Below, in pieces: positions 1 through 7,421 of a stretch of 7,421 nt of DNA. The first letter of the stretch is position 1; each line of letters starts with the position of its first letter. The stretch spans positions 1 to 7,421 of the forward strand of contig PDOX01000039.1 in NCBI GenBank assembly GCA_002746475.1, read 5' to 3'. Origin of the DNA: a candidate division SR1 bacterium (GTDB lineage Bacteria; Patescibacteriota; Gracilibacteria; Absconditabacterales; Absconditicoccaceae). A program made the translations under genes and the position numbers. Under the pieces are notes generated by a model, which was not told the origin of the DNA, searched no databases, and saw only the letters and a program-made list of their open reading frames with translations.

Positions 1-3
1 CTC

Positions 4-31
4 TTGAAATAAAAAAGTGTTTTCCTATAAA
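4..31 (+). promoter_or_regulatory. Putative sigma70-type promoter for gyrA
   Basis: TTGAAA at 4-9 and TATAAA at 26-31 are separated by 16 bases. This would start transcription near position 38 and leave a leader of about 44 bases before the gyrA ATG. A GGAGAGGA run at 42-49 is too far from the ATG to serve as its Shine-Dalgarno. Confidence 0.4.
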
Positions 32-81
32 TTAAGGTATTGGAGAGGACTTTTTTTTATTTTTAAAAAAGCTACATCACT

Positions 82-3033
82 ATGTCAGAAGAAAAGACAA
101 ATATTTTTGGAGGGAAAATTATTCCTCATTCGTTGGAGAAGGAGATTACACAGTCATATATTGACTATGCACTTTCTGTAATTATTTCTCGTGCCTTGCC
201 AGATACTAGAGACGGATTCAAGCCGGTATTGAGAAGAATTCTCTATGCGATGTATGATCAAAAAATCTTGGCGAATACTAAACATAAAAAATCTGCGAGA
301 ATTGTCTGAGAAGTACTGTGAAAATACCACCCACATGGAGATAGTTCAGTATATGAAGCGATGGTGAGAATGGCTCAACCTTGGTCAATGAGATACCCAT
401 TGGTAGATGGGCAAGGAAACTTCGGGTCAATTGATGGAGATTCACCAGCGGCGATGAGGTATACTGAGGCAAAATTGACAAAAATTGCTGAGGAAATGCT
501 TGCTGATATTGAACAAGATACGGTAGATTGGAGAGATAATTTTGATGCTTCATTGCAAGAACCGATCATGTTGCCAACAAAATTTCCAAATCATTTGTGT
601 AATGGAACGATGGGTATTGCCGTAGGTATGGCGACCAACATGGCTCCGCACAATCTGACAGAAGTTATTGATGCAAGTTTGCTCTTGATAGAAAAAGAAG
701 GGAAAAAAGTAGATCATTCTCAAATGGAAATTGTGAGACCAGAAGATAAGATGGTGTTGATTGATGCTATTGGAGTATTGTTTGAAGAAGATGGTGAAAG
801 CTATATTTTGAATGAAAAATTAGCAAAATATCTTGCTGGATTGAAAGCAAAAAAACTTATTGTGACCAATAAACCAGAAGAAGAATGTGAAAAATTAAAA
901 AATATCTTAACTACTGCTGGGTATGAAGATACGTTTGAAGTTTTCTCAAAAGGGAATGATCCAAAAAAATCAGAAGAAAAATATTTCAAAATACTTTTGG
1001 AAGAATATGAAATACCAGCTGAGAGAGTAGTATATTTTGACCACTTGCAGAGAAATCTCGATGCTGCGAATAGAGCGGGAATTGAATCAACTTTGATCTA
1101 CAAGGAATTGATTTCTACTCAGAAATTTATCAATGAATTCCTAGAATCTCAGGTTTCAGAAGATGGAACCTATTCGGTTTCTATTGATGAAATTATGGAA
1201 ATTATCAAAGGTCCTGACTTCGCAACCGGAGGTGTGATGTTTGATTCTAAAAATATTCTTGAAGTATACAAAAAAGGAAGAGGAGGAATCGTAACCAGAG
1301 GAAAGACGCATGTTGAAGACATCAAATCGCATCAAGCCATTGTGATTGATGAAATTCCGTATATGGTAAACAAAGGAAACTTGGTTGCGAAAATCGGTGA
1401 TCTGGTAGTAAACAAAAAAATTGAAGGGGTGACGGATATCAGAGATGAATCCAGTAAAGGAGACATCAGAATTGTAGTAGATCTGAAAAAAGGAGTAAAA
1501 CCAGACAGAATTTTGATGCAATTATTCAAATTCACAGAATTACAGACCAATTTCAACTTAAATAATGTGACTTTGGTAGACAAAGGAATCCAACCAAGAA
1601 CCTTGAATATCAAAGAATTGTTAATGGAATTTGTAGATTTCAGAAGAAAGGTAGTCTATCGTAGATCCGTATATCAACTTAACAAAGCTGAAGCGAGATT
1701 ACATATCTTAGAAGGGTTGAAAAAGGCCATAGATATTATTGATGAAGTGATTGAAACGATCAAAAAATCTCAAACCAAACAAGATGCGAAACAGCAATTG
1801 ATGGAGAAATTTGACTTTTCTGATGAACAAGCTGAATATATCTTGCTCATGAGATTGCAAAGTTTGGTTGGGCTAGAAATCCAAAAAATTAGTGATGAAA
1901 TCGATGAAAAAATCAAATTAATTGAGTATTTGAGAGGAATTATCGGTGATGCTGAAAAACTTGATGCTGTAGTGGTTGAGGAACTAACCTATATGAAAGA
2001 TAAATACGGAGACAAGAGAAGAACCGAACTTTCACAAGACACGAGTGTTTATAATTTGGGAGGAAGTTTGAAGGCGTTGAGAGATGCTGCCGACCAAGTG
2101 AAAGAAGATGTGATCTTGTGGTTGAGTAATGAATATCAAATGAAAGTATTATACCAGACCAGAATCCAAAATATTCCAGAAGAAACCTTGGATATTGTCT
2201 ATACGCACAACCAAGATAAACTCATCGTGATCACCGACAAAGGAGAATTGGTAGTGCAGAGATTGAAAGATTTCTGAGCGTTTACAACTGCAAAAGCGCC
2301 ATTAGATATCAAAGAACACTTTGGACTCAAAGGGAAAATCTTGTTTGCAAAAACCCTGCATTTTGATTACGAACATTTGTTATTCTTGACCAATGACAAT
2401 AGTATCAAAAAGATGAAAAAAGAACAAATCTTGAGCTTCAAAAAATTCCCAACGGTTGTGATGAAACTTGCAAAAGGAGAGAAAATTTTGAAAGTACTTC
2501 CAGTAAGTGATGATGACAAAGTTGGAGTAATCACAAAAGATGGAATGGGATTATTATTCCCAACCACTGATGTGAGAGCAATGGGAAAAACCGCAGGAGG
2601 AATCAAAGCGATTGACCTTGCTGATGGAGATAAAGTTTCAGGAATGTTCTTGTATCAAGGGCAACCATTCATCTTGATCTACTCAGACAAAGACGGAAAA
2701 TTACTTAGTGTAGAAGATGATTTGAGAGTATGGAAAAGAGCAAGAAAAGGAGATGTCTGGGCTACTGGAAAAGAACAACTCAAAGGTGGACTCAGTATCG
2801 AAGAAGGAGCTGTGAGACTGATGTTTGATGACGGAACACGAAAGACCTTACATTCTAATGATATTAAACTTGATATGCCAGATACTCCATTGAAAAAAAT
2901 GGTAGACAAAAAAATTGAAATGGCATATCGCCCACGAGAAGAAAAAGAAGAAAATCTTTCATACAAAGAAGAAATCAAAAAAAAGAAAAAGAAAGAACAA
3001 GAAAAGAAGGGGGGACTGTTTAGTGAGGAGTAG
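82..3033 (+). CDS. gyrA: DNA gyrase/topoisomerase IV subunit A with inserted HAD-like domain (code 25)
   Basis: Breakage-reunion subunit of a type IIA topoisomerase; with GyrB/ParE it passes one duplex through another to control supercoiling. Reading UGA as Gly at 307, 319 and 2275 gives one 983-residue frame ending in TAG. Seen: the N-terminal winged-helix region with [10 protein letters not shown] near residue 26, the quinolone region [17 protein letters not shown] at 76-92, and catalytic Tyr127 in [10 protein letters not shown]. Residues about 206-365 are foreign to the family (separate entry). GPDFATGG follows, then the coiled-coil/tower part to GDKRRTEL near 643, then beta-pinwheel repeats ([14 protein letters not shown]) and a Lys/Glu-rich tail. 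Without the insert the length is about 830, normal for GyrA. I see no clear GyrA box (QRRGGKG-like), so ParC is possible. The ATG at 82 precedes the conserved N-terminus; no good Shine-Dalgarno is present. Family certain, GyrA versus ParC unresolved. Confidence 0.95.
697..1176 (+). other. HAD-superfamily-like domain inserted in GyrA
   Basis: From the conserved PHN to GPDF, family members have roughly 32 residues; here there are 188. The extra part carries the haloacid-dehalogenase motifs in order. Motif I is [10 protein letters not shown] with nucleophile-type Asp228 but Ile230 in place of the second Asp. Motif II is KLIVTN with Thr262. Motif III is KKSEEKYF with Lys295/296. Motif IV is [19 protein letters not shown] with Asp320, His321 and Asn325. 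Only about 33 residues separate motifs I and II, so it would be a capless HAD. It joins in frame without stops, and the flanks ([10 protein letters not shown] and [12 protein letters not shown]) continue as normal GyrA. It has no intein splice motifs. The missing second Asp argues for weak or absent phosphatase activity. Motif assignment is by eye. Confidence 0.75.
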
Positions 3034-3082
3034 TATATCGTTAGATAAAAAAATCATTTATTTTGAATGATGTATAAATAAT

Positions 3083-3388
3083 ATGCTTAAAAATAAAGAT
3101 TCTTTCAACACACGAAACGATAAGAAATATTTTTTGCATAGCCAAAGTTGAAAAAAGACATTTATTAATATGAGAGAGATTTGGTATGTTTCGTTAGGGA
3201 ATAATATTGGGTATGAAGAAGATGGAAAGTGAAACGACTATAAAAGACCTGTGCTTGTTTTAAAAAAGCTATGAATTACTTCTCAACCAAAGGCGATTGA
3301 TAAAAAAAGGTTTATTGAGAAAATAGGGATACTATCTGAAACAGATTTTGAGACTATAAAAAAAGAGCTAATAGCTTTTTGGTTTTAG
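3083..3388 (+). pseudogene. PemK/MazF-family toxin with internal deletion
   Basis: 101 residues with three UGA-Gly codons and a TAG stop. The N-terminal part (MREIWYVSLGNNIGYEEDGKGNDYKRPVLVLKK) matches the start of PemK/MazF-like mRNA interferase toxins, including the Arg of the RPVLVL strand. The C-terminal part (SQPKAIDKKRFIEKIGILSETDFETIKKEL) matches the end of the same family. The joining segment is only LGIT, where relatives carry roughly 40-50 more residues, including the PLT-type strand with a conserved Thr. The reading frame is intact across the gap, so this looks like an in-frame internal deletion that should abolish RNase activity. The roughly 29 residues before MREIW also resemble the usual N-terminal extension of this subfamily, supporting the ATG at 3083. 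No antitoxin gene is recognisable next to it. It could instead be an unusually short variant. Confidence 0.7.
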
Positions 3389-3515
3389 ACTATTAACCCT
3401 TATTTTTTCTCCACTCCTTTACAGAAGTGGGAGGATCCCGAAGGACATTTGTACTATCAGTATATAGAAAAAATTGGAAAATGCAAATAAAAAGATTGAA
3501 AAAGTTTTAATTTTT

Positions 3516-3543
3516 TTGCATATCGTTGCATTTTATGTATACT
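3516..3543 (+). promoter_or_regulatory. Putative promoter for the 3580 gene
   Basis: TTGCAT at 3516-3521 and TATACT at 3538-3543 have a 16-base spacer. A second TTGCAT copy at 3526-3531 makes a direct repeat with 10-base period, which could be an operator. The predicted transcript start near 3550 lies about 30 bases before the ATG at 3580, which supports that ATG as the original start. Confidence 0.45.
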
Positions 3544-3579
3544 ATGAATATTGTCTTTTATATATTAAATATATTCCTA

Positions 3580-3680
3580 ATGTGATGACTTGACTTCTTA
3601 AAATTTAATAATAAAGGGGGGGGGAGATAAGAGATATTGTAGAGCAGAAGCTCGTTAATTGACTACGAGAGAAGCTTGTT
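3580..3680 (+). other. Likely N-terminal coding segment broken by a G9 tract
   Basis: From ATG 3580 the frame reads MGGLDFLKFNNKGGG with two UGA-Gly codons, then meets TAA just after a run of nine G at 3616-3624. Moving to the frame of the downstream gene at the G run continues as EIRDIVEQKLVNGLREKLV with no stop and runs directly into the 3681 CDS. A tenth G in the DNA, or a -1 slip in the run, would give a 254-residue protein. It may be a phase-variable tract, a programmed slip, a fixed mutation or a sequencing error. Confidence 0.5.
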
Positions 3681-4343
3681 ATGAATGAAGATCCTAAACA
3701 ATCTTTGAAAATTACTCTTCCTTTTAGACAGATAGAATCAGTTAGTTCTTGTTTTAGAAATTGAGCATTGCATTTATATGTAAATTTAAAAGATGAATAT
3801 TTGAAAAAAATATCCAATAGAATAATTCCTCTTGATTGAGAAAAAGGAGTGTGAATGAAGGTAGGGATATTTTGATCAAGTATAGAAATAGATTTGTATA
3901 ATGATTGAGATTTAGCTAAAAATTTTGAACAGTTTATTCAATTTCTTAGAGAAAATACAGATTTGTATTATGATGAAAATATTTTTGATATTAAATGGTC
4001 TGATAGGTCAAAACGGTGAGATGATAGGTTAAAAGTTACCATAAATCATGTCATTGAACAAGAACAATCAGATATTGAAAAAATATTGAAAGAAGCAGAT
4101 ATGAAATTATCAGGTAAAGATGAACAAAAAATAATATCAAAGATTAAAAATTTGGAATTAAGTTTTATGGAGGATAGTTATGCTGGTCTTGCTTTTGATA
4201 TGATGTTTGATGCTGATTGGAAAAAAGAAGATTTTGAAAGATTTATTGATATGATTAAAAAGAATAAATCTACTTATAATAGTGTAAAGAACTTTTTTGA
4301 TGCTTTACAAAATTTTGATTGAAAAAATGGAAATAATATATAA
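3681..4343 (+). CDS. Hypothetical protein (code 25)
   Basis: 220 residues from ATG 3681 to TAA with seven UGA-Gly codons. I do not recognise the family. The N-terminal half looks like an alpha/beta domain (SLKITLPFRQIESV, ALHLYVNL, VGMKVGIFGSSIEIDLYND). The C-terminal half is charged and probably helical (EQEQSDIEKILKEADMKL to KNFFDALQNFDGKNGNNI). No signal peptide or membrane segment is seen, so it is probably cytoplasmic. ATG 3681 is the only standard start in this frame and has a GAGAGAAG purine run at 3667-3674 as possible ribosome site. The frame is, however, open further upstream to the G9 tract and the original start may be 3580. The protease gene starts 45 bases downstream, so the two may be co-transcribed. 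Confidence 0.8.
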
Positions 4344-4388
4344 AATTCAGATGGTATAAATTTAGATTGTTAAGATTGTATATCTATT

Positions 4389-5201
4389 ATGAAAACTCAT
4401 CAAAAAATATTAATCATTGTTGCTTTGGTGAGTTTTTTTTCTTGTTTTATTGTTATGTTATCAAATCCCTCTTTTACTTCTCCCTTTGTCAAGGGAGATA
4501 CTCCCTCTTGAACTTCCCCCTTGATAAAGGGGGATTGAGGGGGATTTGAAGAAAAAAATATACTTGAAACTCAACATCCTATTCCAGAATATATAACAAA
4601 CAATCAACACTATCTTGTAAAAATATTTAGTAAGCAACAATTCACTGAGAAAGGTCAAGATTGAGGATTGAAAAATAGTGTTATTATCTCGCTTGGACAT
4701 TGAATTTTGCTTAATAATGAGTGATATATTTTGACAAATAAGCATGTCGTACAAGATATGGTGCAAGAATATGGAAATTCGCTCTATGTTAGTGTTGATG
4801 ATCAGGAATATCGTGTAGAAAATATCTGGCGAGATGAACAGCAAGACAGTAAACAAGATAGTAATCAAGATCTTGCACTTATCAAAATTGCTCATGTTTC
4901 TGAGGATGATAGCAATATGCCAGTATTTCAAAACACATCATCTTCTTGAGCGATTGAGAATGATATTCCTGTTTGGGTAGTGACATCAGCAAAGATTGTA
5001 TCATGAACGGCGAGACTGCTTTCGTGAGAGTGGCAGACCAATATCTCTGGGAAATCCTGAGACAGTGGAAGTATTTTATGTGATGATGCGTGAAATATTA
5101 TAGGAATAAATACAGAAATTAATCTCGATGATAATGATCACCTCTATGCAATTGCATTAAGTCAAAATAGTTTGCAAAAAATATTAAAATTTAGGATGTA
5201 A
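4389..5201 (+). CDS. Membrane-anchored trypsin-like (HtrA/S1C-type) serine protease
   Basis: 270 residues with ten UGA-Gly codons and a TAA stop. Residues 5-24 form one hydrophobic N-terminal segment (signal peptide or anchor), so the protease should face the outside of the membrane. A linker of about 50 residues, partly encoded by a palindromic repeat, leads to the catalytic domain. The triad is visible: His119 in GYILTNKHVVQD, Asp161 in QDLALIKI and Ser226 in GKSGDSGS. The oxyanion Gly224 is encoded by UGA at 5058. GNIIGINTEI after the serine is also typical of HtrA-like enzymes. No PDZ domain follows; the protein ends about 44 residues after Ser226. A short Asp/Gln/Ser-rich repeat (DSKQDSNQD) precedes the catalytic Asp. 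Likely role: cleavage of envelope or neighbouring proteins; the substrate is unknown. Confidence 0.9.
4462..4548. repeat. Palindromic dispersed-type repeat inside the protease gene
   Basis: The outer arms CAAATCCCTC (4462-4471) and GAGGGGGATTTG (4537-4548) are nearly complementary. Inside are two perfect 8-bp hairpins with 4-base loops: TCTCCCTT/AAGGGAGA at 4479-4498 and TCCCCCTT/AAGGGGGA at 4515-4534. The style matches a common dispersed intergenic repeat whose translations read like SPLDKGG or PPFIKGG (recalled, not searched). Here it is read in frame as part of the protease linker, using UGA codons as Gly. Confidence 0.7.
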
Positions 5202-5214
5202 ATAATATCTAAAA

Positions 5215-5228
5215 ATTATACGTATAAT
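5215..5228. repeat. Perfect AT-rich palindrome between convergent genes
   Basis: The 14 bases ATTATACGTATAAT are a perfect palindrome lying in the 37-base gap between the convergent stops of the protease gene and the minus-strand membrane gene. It could form a weak two-way terminator stem or be a protein-binding site. With a stem made almost only of A-T pairs, a terminator role is unproven. Confidence 0.3.
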
Positions 5229-5238
5229 ATAATTATTA

Positions 5239-6105
5239 TTATTCTTCTTTGATTTCTAGAAATATGTTATATCGGTAAGATTCAAAAAACGCATAAATAA
5301 TTGCATTAACATAGCTGAATAATAGAATTCATGTAATTCAGAAAATCCATAATAATAAAGAACCAAATCCATTAGTAAACCATTGGAAATATATAATGAT
5401 ATACATTACTATTGTTGGAATTAAGAAGAGTATTCCAATTCTAAAATAAAAAAATATAAATAGAAAGATTTGATATATTGTAGCTTTTATGACTTTACCA
5501 AAATTTGATATAGCAAGGCTCATACTTTTTTTGATAGCTGGATAAACATCATATCATTCAATAGCAATGAGAATCTTTGCAAAAGGAAGAAAGAGTTTCA
5601 GTAAAATTACGAGAATTCCCCAAAGAGATAAAAGACTTATAATAAAGAAATTTTCTAAGACATTTAGTGTAAAGAGTCTAGCTATAGTAATAAAAAAAGT
5701 AATAATTGAAAATGATGTGATCAGCGTATTATATTCAAAGAAAATAAAAAATTTTGATAATCATACTCCTAATGCTTTACTAAATCTAGTTTTATGAGCA
5801 ATAATTTCTAATACACTTCCATAAGCAATAGGGAAAAATACAAAATATCATAATATAATAAAAACAATAAGAAGAATAGCCCATACAAAAAAGTTATATT
5901 CTTTTATAATGTTCCAAAAATAATTGAAAACTAAAAGTATAGAAACTCCACTATGATATTTATAAATAAGAATGTTATTAAGATTCCATAATAACAAAAA
6001 AAGATTTGATATAGTATGTCAAATAGTAGTAATCCAAGAAAGAGTCAGTATACCTTTATTTTCCAAGAGATCTTTTTTGCTTTGTATTCAAAGATGTTTT
6101 AACAT
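5239..6105 (-). CDS. Multi-pass integral membrane protein (code 25)
   Basis: 288 residues from the ATG at 6105-6103 to TAA at 5241-5239, with seven UGA-Gly codons. It is very hydrophobic, with about six probable membrane segments near residues 22-42, 76-96, 130-150, 152-183, 206-240 and 248-274. The loop EGYDVYPAIKKSMSLAISNFGKVIKA before the fifth segment resembles the layout of glycerophosphodiester-phosphodiesterase-type or DUF975-like membrane domains, where a short amphipathic AIKxS stretch precedes a helix pair. That is only a resemblance. The C-terminus is short and charged (EIKEE), and no catalytic motif is seen. It is convergent with the protease gene and appears to be transcribed alone. 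Function unknown. Confidence 0.85.
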
Positions 6106-6141
6106 AGTGATGAGATATTAAATAAGTTGAATCTACGATAT

Positions 6142-6150
6142 TTTATAACA
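6142..6150 (-). promoter_or_regulatory. Extended -10 element for the minus-strand membrane gene
   Basis: On the minus strand the bases TGTTATAAA fit an extended -10 (TGnTATAAT-like). The -10 hexamer is at 6147-6142, which predicts a start near 6135 and a leader of about 30 bases to the ATG. The -35 is weak. Confidence 0.35.
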
Positions 6151-6155
6151 CTATT

Positions 6156-6338
6156 ATGAAATATAGTATAAATGAATATTTTGGATTTTCAAGAGATTCT
6201 ATTTTTTTTCTTAAAAATCTCTTGAAATTATACCCTATATGGGTATATTTAGTTTCGTTAATTTTTAGTTCTTTAGTTTGTAACAGATGCAAAAAAAGAA
6301 AAAACTTATTAAAAAGTGGCCATTCAATTCAAAGCTAG
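6156..6338 (+). CDS. Doubtful small ORF, hypothetical
   Basis: 60 codons, ATG to TAG, with no UGA codon. The translation starts MKYSINEYFGFSRDSIFFLK, has one hydrophobic stretch (YPIWVYLVSLIFSSLV, residues about 26-41) and ends in a basic tail. It is divergent from the membrane gene with a 50-base gap. I recognise no family. The start may be real, but the last 23 bases overlap another frame that looks more protein-like, so this may be a decayed gene or chance. Confidence 0.3.
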   Translation: MKYSINEYFGFSRDSIFFLKNLLKLYPIWVYLVSLIFSSLVCNRCKKRKNLLKSGHSIQS

Positions 6339-6453
6339 TCATTCAGCTTTGGCGAGTGTGTTTAGAGATTATCTCTATGAAAGTGCGGTAGAATGCCAGG
6401 TAGAAGATAGAGAGGTTTTGAAAAAAGTTTTGGGGATTTTGGCACAGGGGTAG
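6316..6453 (+). pseudogene. Possible C-terminal remnant of an unidentified gene
   Basis: A 45-residue frame from GTG 6316 to TAG 6453 reads VAIQFKASHSALASVFRDYL then YESAVECQVEDREVLKKVLGILAQG. It has a balanced, soluble, helical composition and higher GC than the DNA before it. An in-frame TAA lies two codons upstream of the GTG. The A-rich stretch just before it (6287-6315) could hide a frameshift: from the ATG at 6287 a one-base shift would give MQKKKKLIKK joined to this segment. I do not recognise the family. Confidence 0.3.
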
Positions 6454-6490
6454 TGTTCCTCCCTATTCTGTGCGGTTTCCCTCTCTGTTT

Positions 6491-6590
6491 CTTACCTCCC
6501 CTGTATCCCCTCCTCCCAGGAGGGGCCGAAGCGTAAAAAGCCTCTCCTGCTAGGAGAGGTGTCCCGACAAAGTCGGGACGGAGAGGTAAG
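6491..6590. repeat. Nested hairpin repeat element A
   Basis: The outer arms CTTACCTC (6491-6498) and GAGGTAAG (6583-6590) are perfectly complementary. Within them are three perfect 8-bp hairpins with 3-base loops: CCCCTCCT/AGGAGGGG (6507-6525), CCTCTCCT/AGGAGAGG (6541-6559) and GTCCCGAC/GTCGGGAC (6561-6579). It is GC-rich against an AT-rich background and does not code. It looks like a composite dispersed intergenic repeat. Confidence 0.75.
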
Positions 6591-6608
6591 GATAAGATAA
6601 ACTCAGCA

Positions 6609-6687
6609 TGACACTAAAATGAGTAGAGATTCCTGCCTTCGTTCACCACGGAGGACTCCGTGGCAAGGGAATGACAGAATAGTGTCA
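6609..6687. repeat. Nested hairpin repeat element B
   Basis: The outer arms TGACACTA (6609-6616) and TAGTGTCA (6680-6687) pair perfectly. A middle stem ATTCCTGCC with GGCAAGGGAAT is imperfect. The inner hairpin CCACGGAG/CTCCGTGG (6646-6663) has a 2-base loop. The order of nested arms suggests a repeat built by insertion of one palindrome into another. Confidence 0.65.
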
Positions 6688-6770
6688 CTCAGAGCGAAGC
6701 GAAGAGTCTAGTAAAGAAAAACTGGATTCTTCGGCAAAGCCTTAGACCTGTCTGACAAGTCAGAATGACA
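6683..6770. repeat. Hairpin repeat element C (GAGCGAAGCGAAGA-type)
   Basis: GAAGAGTCTAGT (6701-6712) pairs with ACTGGATTCTTC (6721-6732) with two mismatches. The outer arms TGTCACTC (6683-6690) and GAATGACA (6763-6770) pair with one mismatch. A small stem TCTGAC/GTCAGA lies at 6751-6764. The text resembles the widespread dispersed repeat containing GTCATTCTGAGCGAAGCGAA (recalled from other genomes). Its arms overlap those of element B. Together with elements A and B it fills the gene-free 6454-6818 stretch. Confidence 0.6.
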
Positions 6771-6818
6771 AAGGGGAAAAAATCACATTTTAACTATTTA
6801 TTACAAACAAACATAATT

Positions 6819-7421
6819 ATGAAACAGACAAGAACAGTATCAGTTTTATTTTTAGTAGTATTTTTATGATTGGGGGTGTTTTCTCTTTCAGGATGTGGGA
6901 AGAAACCAGCTATTCCTATGGGGATAGGAGAATACTACGAAAGTATTGAAGTGGAAACGGGGAAGATCACAGAATATACCAGTTATGTAGGATATACCCA
7001 TCCAGCAAAAGAGACGACCTTGTCTACTGAATTGCCCTGAGTGATTAATCAGATTGCCGTGAAAGTTGGAGATAGTGTCCAGAAAGGTCAGCTTTTGACC
7101 TTGGTAGATACGAATGAAATGGATGTGAATTATCAGTCGGCGAGTAGTAGTTTAGAGGCTTTTGGGCAATTAGAAAACGCGACAAGTTCAACCTTTGATG
7201 CACAAATTGAGATGGCAAAAAACAAAGTACAACAGGCAAAAATTGCCGTGGATATGGCAAAAGTGGACGGAGATGGATCAGCAGAAAAACAATTGACGCA
7301 GATGAAAATGCAAATTGATACTTTGAAAACGCAACTGGAGAGAGCAAAGTCAGGACTAGGAACCAAAGAGCAACAGTTATATCAGAATGGAGTAAATACG
7401 CTCTTGGCATCAAAGATTTTA
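6819..7421 (+). CDS. Lipoprotein periplasmic adaptor (RND/HlyD-type membrane fusion protein), 3' partial
   Basis: 201 residues from ATG 6819, still open at the window edge, with two UGA-Gly codons (residues 17 and 74). A basic start (KQTR), a hydrophobic core and the lipobox LSGC give a lipoprotein signal with acylated Cys26. Residues 45-97 match the adaptor pattern: the strand YVGYTHPAKETTLST, then the lipoyl-type half-motif VKVGDSVQKGQLLTLVD. Residues about 100-195 are Gln/Lys/Glu/Ala-rich and form the first part of the alpha-helical hairpin (IEMAKNKVQQAKIAV, QMKMQIDTLKTQLERAK), ending in LLASKIL. Such adaptors link an inner-membrane pump (RND, or MacB-type ABC) to other envelope parts, and the pump gene would be expected downstream. 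The repeat cluster lies directly upstream; no convincing promoter or Shine-Dalgarno is seen. Confidence 0.9.

Follow-up and report, generated by a model that had tools for sequence, protein, structure and literature searches.

Few machines are more conserved than type IIA topoisomerases, which are also targets of antibiotics, and an enzyme-fold domain within their A subunit is unexpected. The locus considered here lies on a stretch of 7,421 nucleotides (the window, meaning the whole stretch) from a candidate division SR1 bacterium (Absconditicoccaceae; GCA_002746475.1, contig PDOX01000039.1, positions 1-7,421, forward strand), which is contig C42 of genome G000, a metagenome-assembled genome (MAG) of 561 kb in 102 contigs, 65.6% complete. 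An initial annotation, made from the sequence alone, had described a HAD-like phosphatase domain, possibly degenerate, of about 155 extra residues within a GyrA/ParC frame. We conclude that this domain architecture is real, recurrent, apparently undescribed and made of known parts. As to its nature, we give an even chance to the reading that it is an independently folding HAD module tethered in the topoisomerase A subunit, which likely binds Mg2+ and a small phosphorylated ligand and is not a classical phosphatase. In the counts below, family, class and phylum are the GTDB ranks around the window genome (Absconditicoccaceae, Gracilibacteria and Patescibacteriota).

Results

The topoisomerase gene (Table 1) stays open under code 25, with three TGA codons read as glycine (Gly76, Gly80 and Gly732), and both flanks of the insert are in frame. 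Its product matches PF00521 (E = 3.1e-153), has the catalytic tyrosine of type IIA topoisomerase A subunits at Tyr127, and scores 707.2 bits with NF004044 (cut-off 654). The best NF004044 stretch stops at residue 211 and TIGR01063 resumes at residue 363, while the PF00521 pieces themselves extend into the insert. The span from PHN to GPDF is 192 residues in the window subunit (199 counting the seven residues before it). Among the 30 loci of the class that score best outside the family, 25 have 34 residues there and five were unreadable by the pattern; all 29 other family loci read have 44-98 residues. The excess is about 158 residues over the common form and 148 over the shortest family form. 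Bridged through the short-loop relative L067, the insertion site aligns approximately with Glu201|Asp202 of Escherichia coli GyrA, presumably in the tower region, and the corresponding loop in relatives is a linker of varying length.

The identity of the insert as a HAD domain, proposed earlier from its motifs, was borne out by profiles, homologues and a predicted structure with a Rossmann-like HAD core; neither of the two outcomes named beforehand as contradicting it, a lack of HAD profile hits and a predicted fold without such a core, occurred. Its best NCBIfam match was the pyrimidine 5'-nucleotidase TIGR01993 (4.7e-7, 29.8 bits, cut-off 142.9), followed by TIGR01509 (6e-6, 26.5 bits, cut-off 29.4), and PF13419 also matched (6.7e-5, 23.5 bits, cut-off 23.8); two free-standing relatives, L116 (36.1 bits) and L004 (31.1 bits), clear the TIGR01509 cut-off. 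The HAD set of an Asp, a Ser/Thr, a Lys and an acid is found in order at Asp228, Thr262, Lys296 and Asp320, with the residue type retained in 32 of 32 aligned rows; the motif positions had been placed correctly, Lys296 being the conserved one of the two lysines then considered (Lys295/296). The homologue alignment also bears out, for the window subunit, DAI in place of DxD in motif I and DH in place of DD in motif IV. None of the 32 rows has an acid at D+2 of motif I, where HAD phosphatases have their general acid/base Asp and the window subunit has Ile230, and His follows the motif IV acid in 31. Because of these counts, the DAI and DH motifs are, as read from the alignment, the signature of a small HAD family rather than decay of the window gene.

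The insert recurs in two other topoisomerase subunits. P0003 (977 residues) has the same architecture as the window subunit, with an insert 51% identical, and P0005, a 633-residue record whose N-terminus is missing, carries an insert 72% identical to that of P0003; both keep Asp228. In the second of two trees the three inserts group as one clade (98/97), which suggests that one insertion event lies behind them. The insert was rejected as a general feature of the lineage, since G000 alone carries it among the 48 family genomes with a match. None of the other 47 carries it, as judged from the sequence itself in 29 and, in 18, from matched pieces lying no more than about 25 bases apart; G027 had no match. 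None of the 23 readable loci among the 24 fetched beside the window in the class is a GyrA, weak profile matches not having been individually read, and the matches listed from named records include at least five GyrA loci, of which four match along the entire query with a short loop and one matches residues 1-22 only. No relatives were found among 153 stretches of viral contigs. Literature searches, with most subscription papers and all bioRxiv preprints outside their coverage, brought up no title that deals with a HAD domain within GyrA, ParC or alanyl-tRNA synthetase (AlaRS).

With the insert as query, 23 of 353 class genomes, the window genome included, had a match, and the readable loci were mostly free-standing proteins of about 125 residues, together with four ordinary HADs (206-238 residues) and two AlaRS (G010 and G064). 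A profile built from 18 rows matched 46 of the 353 genomes at 1e-5, 21 of these at 70 bits or more; the rows that went into this profile necessarily match it, and matches below 70 bits were not treated as family members. Over the phylum it matched 16 of 379 drawn genomes at 1e-12, including 13 free-standing copies of the family. Inspection by eye of 17 loci of free-standing copies, covering no more than about 1.5 kb on either side, showed no recurrent neighbour. We know of no name for this free-standing "VDA...(E/D)H" family, which was assembled in the present analysis. A full-length alignment including the free-standing rows (A6) put those rows outside the insert and was not used.

In the AlaRS of G010 and G064 the same domain lies between EIWNNVFMEY and VDTGMG, and two more AlaRS proteins, P0004 and P0006, bear it. 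Within the window's family the domain search met the AlaRS insert in G010 only. An AlaRS match was obtained in 45 family genomes. Where both host pieces are listed on one contig, in most cases they adjoin each other directly or almost directly, the pattern of a clean insertion. G018 and G029 show wider gaps, G028 has its two pieces on separate contigs, and a single piece is seen in G000, G033 and G044, the AlaRS of the incomplete G000 being a fragment (G000:C29:7195-7440). The second tree, which left out the valyl-tRNA synthetase (ValRS) insert L129 because of its branch of 3.65 in the first, splits the GyrA inserts, the AlaRS inserts and two free-standing proteins from 26 other free-standing proteins (99/99), and none of 200 shuffles clustered the host labels as strongly. 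The first tree places the AlaRS insert of G010 with the GyrA inserts (90/81) and, in a long-branch join, that of G064 with a free-standing protein. On these trees the AlaRS inserts may or may not have one origin, or one shared with the GyrA inserts.

As a separate observation, a 1277-residue ValRS (L134 1327-5157, G563:C13) carries HAD (3.8e-15), serine-hydrolase (2.4e-8) and histidine-phosphatase (6.2e-48) domains. Its HAD domain has DIYG and DD and is not clearly kin to the present family.

Across seven inserts (three GyrA, four AlaRS), 27-40% identical between the two hosts, 11 of 121 ungapped columns are invariant, and these include Asp228, Lys296 and Asp320. That three of the four motif positions named beforehand fall among the invariant columns has a hypergeometric P of 0.002, a value that takes related rows and columns as independent. 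The GC content of the insert is 31.7% versus 36.7%, and its third-position GC (GC3) of 24.5% is lower than in any stretch of the same length elsewhere in the gene (28.1-44.6%). A flanking direct repeat was considered as an insertion scar; one 8-base repeat, not tested against chance, was seen, and the idea was dropped.

The earlier GyrA/ParC label holds for a type IIA topoisomerase A subunit, but from its sequence features GyrA proper is not a secure name, because the subunit is without a GyrA box. C-terminal β-propeller repeats of GyrA are present (PF03989, E = 1.1e-12), and the subunit scores 726.4 bits with the GyrA equivalog TIGR01063, below the cut-off of 877, a score that the insert itself may depress. 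Alignment A7, made without 13 of the 29 family loci and without 13 of the 25 readable class loci, shows no box (pattern Q.{0,2}RGG[KR]G) in any of its 18 family subunits (the window subunit, P0003 and the remaining 16 of the 29 family loci), while 11 of the 12 subunits that it holds from other class families have one. Since no GyrA box is seen in the aligned family subunits and 37 of the 49 family genomes hold a single first-look TIGR01063 candidate, the lineage may be without a supercoiling gyrase. Profile searches of the partial genome G000 found one PF00521 locus, the present gene, and no PF00204 (GyrB) match.

Table 1. Features of the topoisomerase gene, in window positions, and AlaRS loci bearing the related insert.
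Feature	Position	Strand	Basis
Type IIA topoisomerase A subunit (GyrA/ParC-like), 983 residues, code 25	82..3033	+	open reading frame translation, profile matches
Tyr127, catalytic tyrosine (AAMRYTE)	460..462	+	sequence; AMRYTE in 30/30 aligned subunits
N-terminal linker of insert, residues 206-221; length-variable loop in relatives	697..744	+	family loci comparison
HAD domain, residues 222-357 (fold predicted)	745..1152	+	profiles, homologues, predicted fold
Asp228, motif I nucleophile position; D+2 = Ile230	763..765	+	D in 32/32 rows
Thr262, motif II	865..867	+	T 31/32, S 1/32; Ile in P0006
Lys296, motif III	967..969	+	K in 32/32 rows
Asp320-His321, motif IV (D or E, then H)	1039..1044	+	E 26/32, D 6/32; H 31/32; DR in P0003
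C-terminal linker, residues 358-365, back into host	1153..1176	+	alignment
AlaRS with HAD insert in catalytic domain	L132 718-2691 (G010:C41); L133 (G064); P0004; P0006	n/a	domain search

Elsewhere in the window, a frame at 2915-3388 (+) overlaps the end of the topoisomerase gene and has a PemK/MazF-like match over residues 123-154 of 157 (27.5 bits, cut-off 23.1), and a trypsin-like peptidase with ten TGA codons lies at 4389-5201 (+; PF13365, 2.3e-11). Positions 6470-6790 hold an interspersed repeat with 33 matches in the 561-kb genome including the window itself; the other matches each cover a portion of this segment, chiefly query bases 25-118 and 214-277.

Discussion

Our reading of the domain builds on these findings: the insert is homologous to HAD proteins, recurs in three subunits, is kin to free-standing and AlaRS copies, and retains Asp228, Lys296 and Asp320. 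In HAD enzymes the metal is bound by the motif I Asp, the backbone carbonyl of D+2 and the motif IV acid, the phosphate is held by Thr/Ser and Lys, and the Asp at D+2 donates a proton to the leaving group and also activates water. Ancestors of the lineage would already have had a long, permissive loop, into which a member of the small non-classical HAD family would have been inserted once. The fold would keep a Mg2+/phosphoryl pocket, with the Asp228 side chain, the residue 230 carbonyl and Asp320 around the metal and Thr262 and Lys296 holding the phosphate. Because the D+2 general acid/base is missing, a covalent aspartyl intermediate would turn over slowly, and the domain would likely bind a ligand, perhaps with chemistry that is slow or of another kind (dehalogenase- or phosphonatase-like). 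The effect on the topoisomerase would be at most modest and allosteric.

Several points weigh against this reading. All three HAD matches are significant by E-value yet under their curated cut-offs. The model of the full subunit is weak (mean predicted local distance difference test score 66.8, predicted template modelling score 0.44, residues 341-360 at 57-60), so the position of the domain on the subunit is not reliably modelled. Thr262 is not invariant (Ser in P0004, Ile in P0006), P0003 has DR for DH, and any fold core should have some invariant positions. Residues 212-363 are also less conserved than the host, with identities of 55.3% against 86.5% (P0003) and 53.8% against 91.4% (P0005), that is, 3.3 and 5.4 times the host differences; drift of a passenger is therefore a possible account of them. 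This divergence and the low GC and GC3 would fit a later arrival or a weaker constraint.

The domain might sit in a permissive surface loop and fold alone, of no use to the topoisomerase and kept since harmless, which we consider possible but doubtful. The excess differences and base composition just given are what such a passenger would show, loop length varies in all 29 family loci read, and the insert is present in one of 48 family genomes with a match. Against this stand the three motif residues that are invariant across seven inserts of low identity between hosts, and a reading frame and predicted fold that outlasted the divergence of three subunits.

A wider proposal takes the tethered HAD module to be small, mobile, non-classical and repeatedly inserted into essential information-processing enzymes of Patescibacteria, where it would be a built-in sensor linking both DNA topology and the charging of tRNA to one shared phosphorylated metabolite, in cells having lost most regulators. 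Its hosts would be the topoisomerase A subunit and AlaRS, with ValRS a looser case. We hold this proposal to be unlikely. The same subgroup in AlaRS does make it testable whether streamlined Patescibacteria store accessory or regulatory domains in genes that they cannot lose.

Also unlikely is an active hydrolase in cis, for example nucleotidase- or dehalogenase-like, for which the host gene merely secures expression and retention. The best NCBIfam match is to a nucleotidase, the nucleophile Asp is kept in every aligned row, and the G563 ValRS carries HAD, histidine-phosphatase and serine-hydrolase domains; but the D+2 acid is missing throughout, the match is far below the equivalog cut-off, and 136 residues would leave no space for a cap.

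An assembly artefact, a chimera of two genes that a fragmented and incomplete MAG might contain, and an intein or other self-splicing insert, such as the intein-bearing GyrA in NCBIfam (NF038098), were both rejected as extremely improbable: P0003 and P0005, from other sources, share the architecture and junctions and both flanks are in frame, and residues 206-373 alone hit none of the intein models with an E of up to 1, the predicted fold being that of a HAD domain.

Comparison With Known Systems

The insert shares with HAD subfamily IA hydrolases (TIGR01509, TIGR01993 and PF13419; small members such as MDP-1, 1u7p) the predicted fold, the motif order, the Asp position, the Thr, the Lys and the motif IV acid, and differs from them in having no D+2 acid, a His after the motif IV acid and a place within another protein; a small HAD family without the D+2 acid is now on record. 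The free-standing HAD-like proteins of Patescibacteria have the same motif set, the nearest being 41% identical (G233), but are not lodged in a host, mostly have Glu-His in motif IV and fall, for 26 of 28, in a separate clade. The AlaRS inserts belong to the same domain subgroup and are likewise within an essential enzyme, although the host differs.

Large inserts in type IIA topoisomerases include the GyrB TOPRIM insert of Gram-negative gyrases and the mycobacterial GyrA inteins, which are in another subunit or site and are not HAD domains. The isoleucyl-tRNA synthetase with a GNAT domain (NCBIfam NF040702) is also a case of a lineage-specific extra domain in a core information-processing enzyme, with another domain and another host. 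RNA polymerase subunits are described as carrying polyphyletic BEAN/HABAS domain inserts (PMC11515920), in a main text where "haloacid" and "gyrase" have 0 occurrences. As presented there, these are likewise extra domains in a core enzyme, with other domains and hosts, and they are the nearest published idea that we found.
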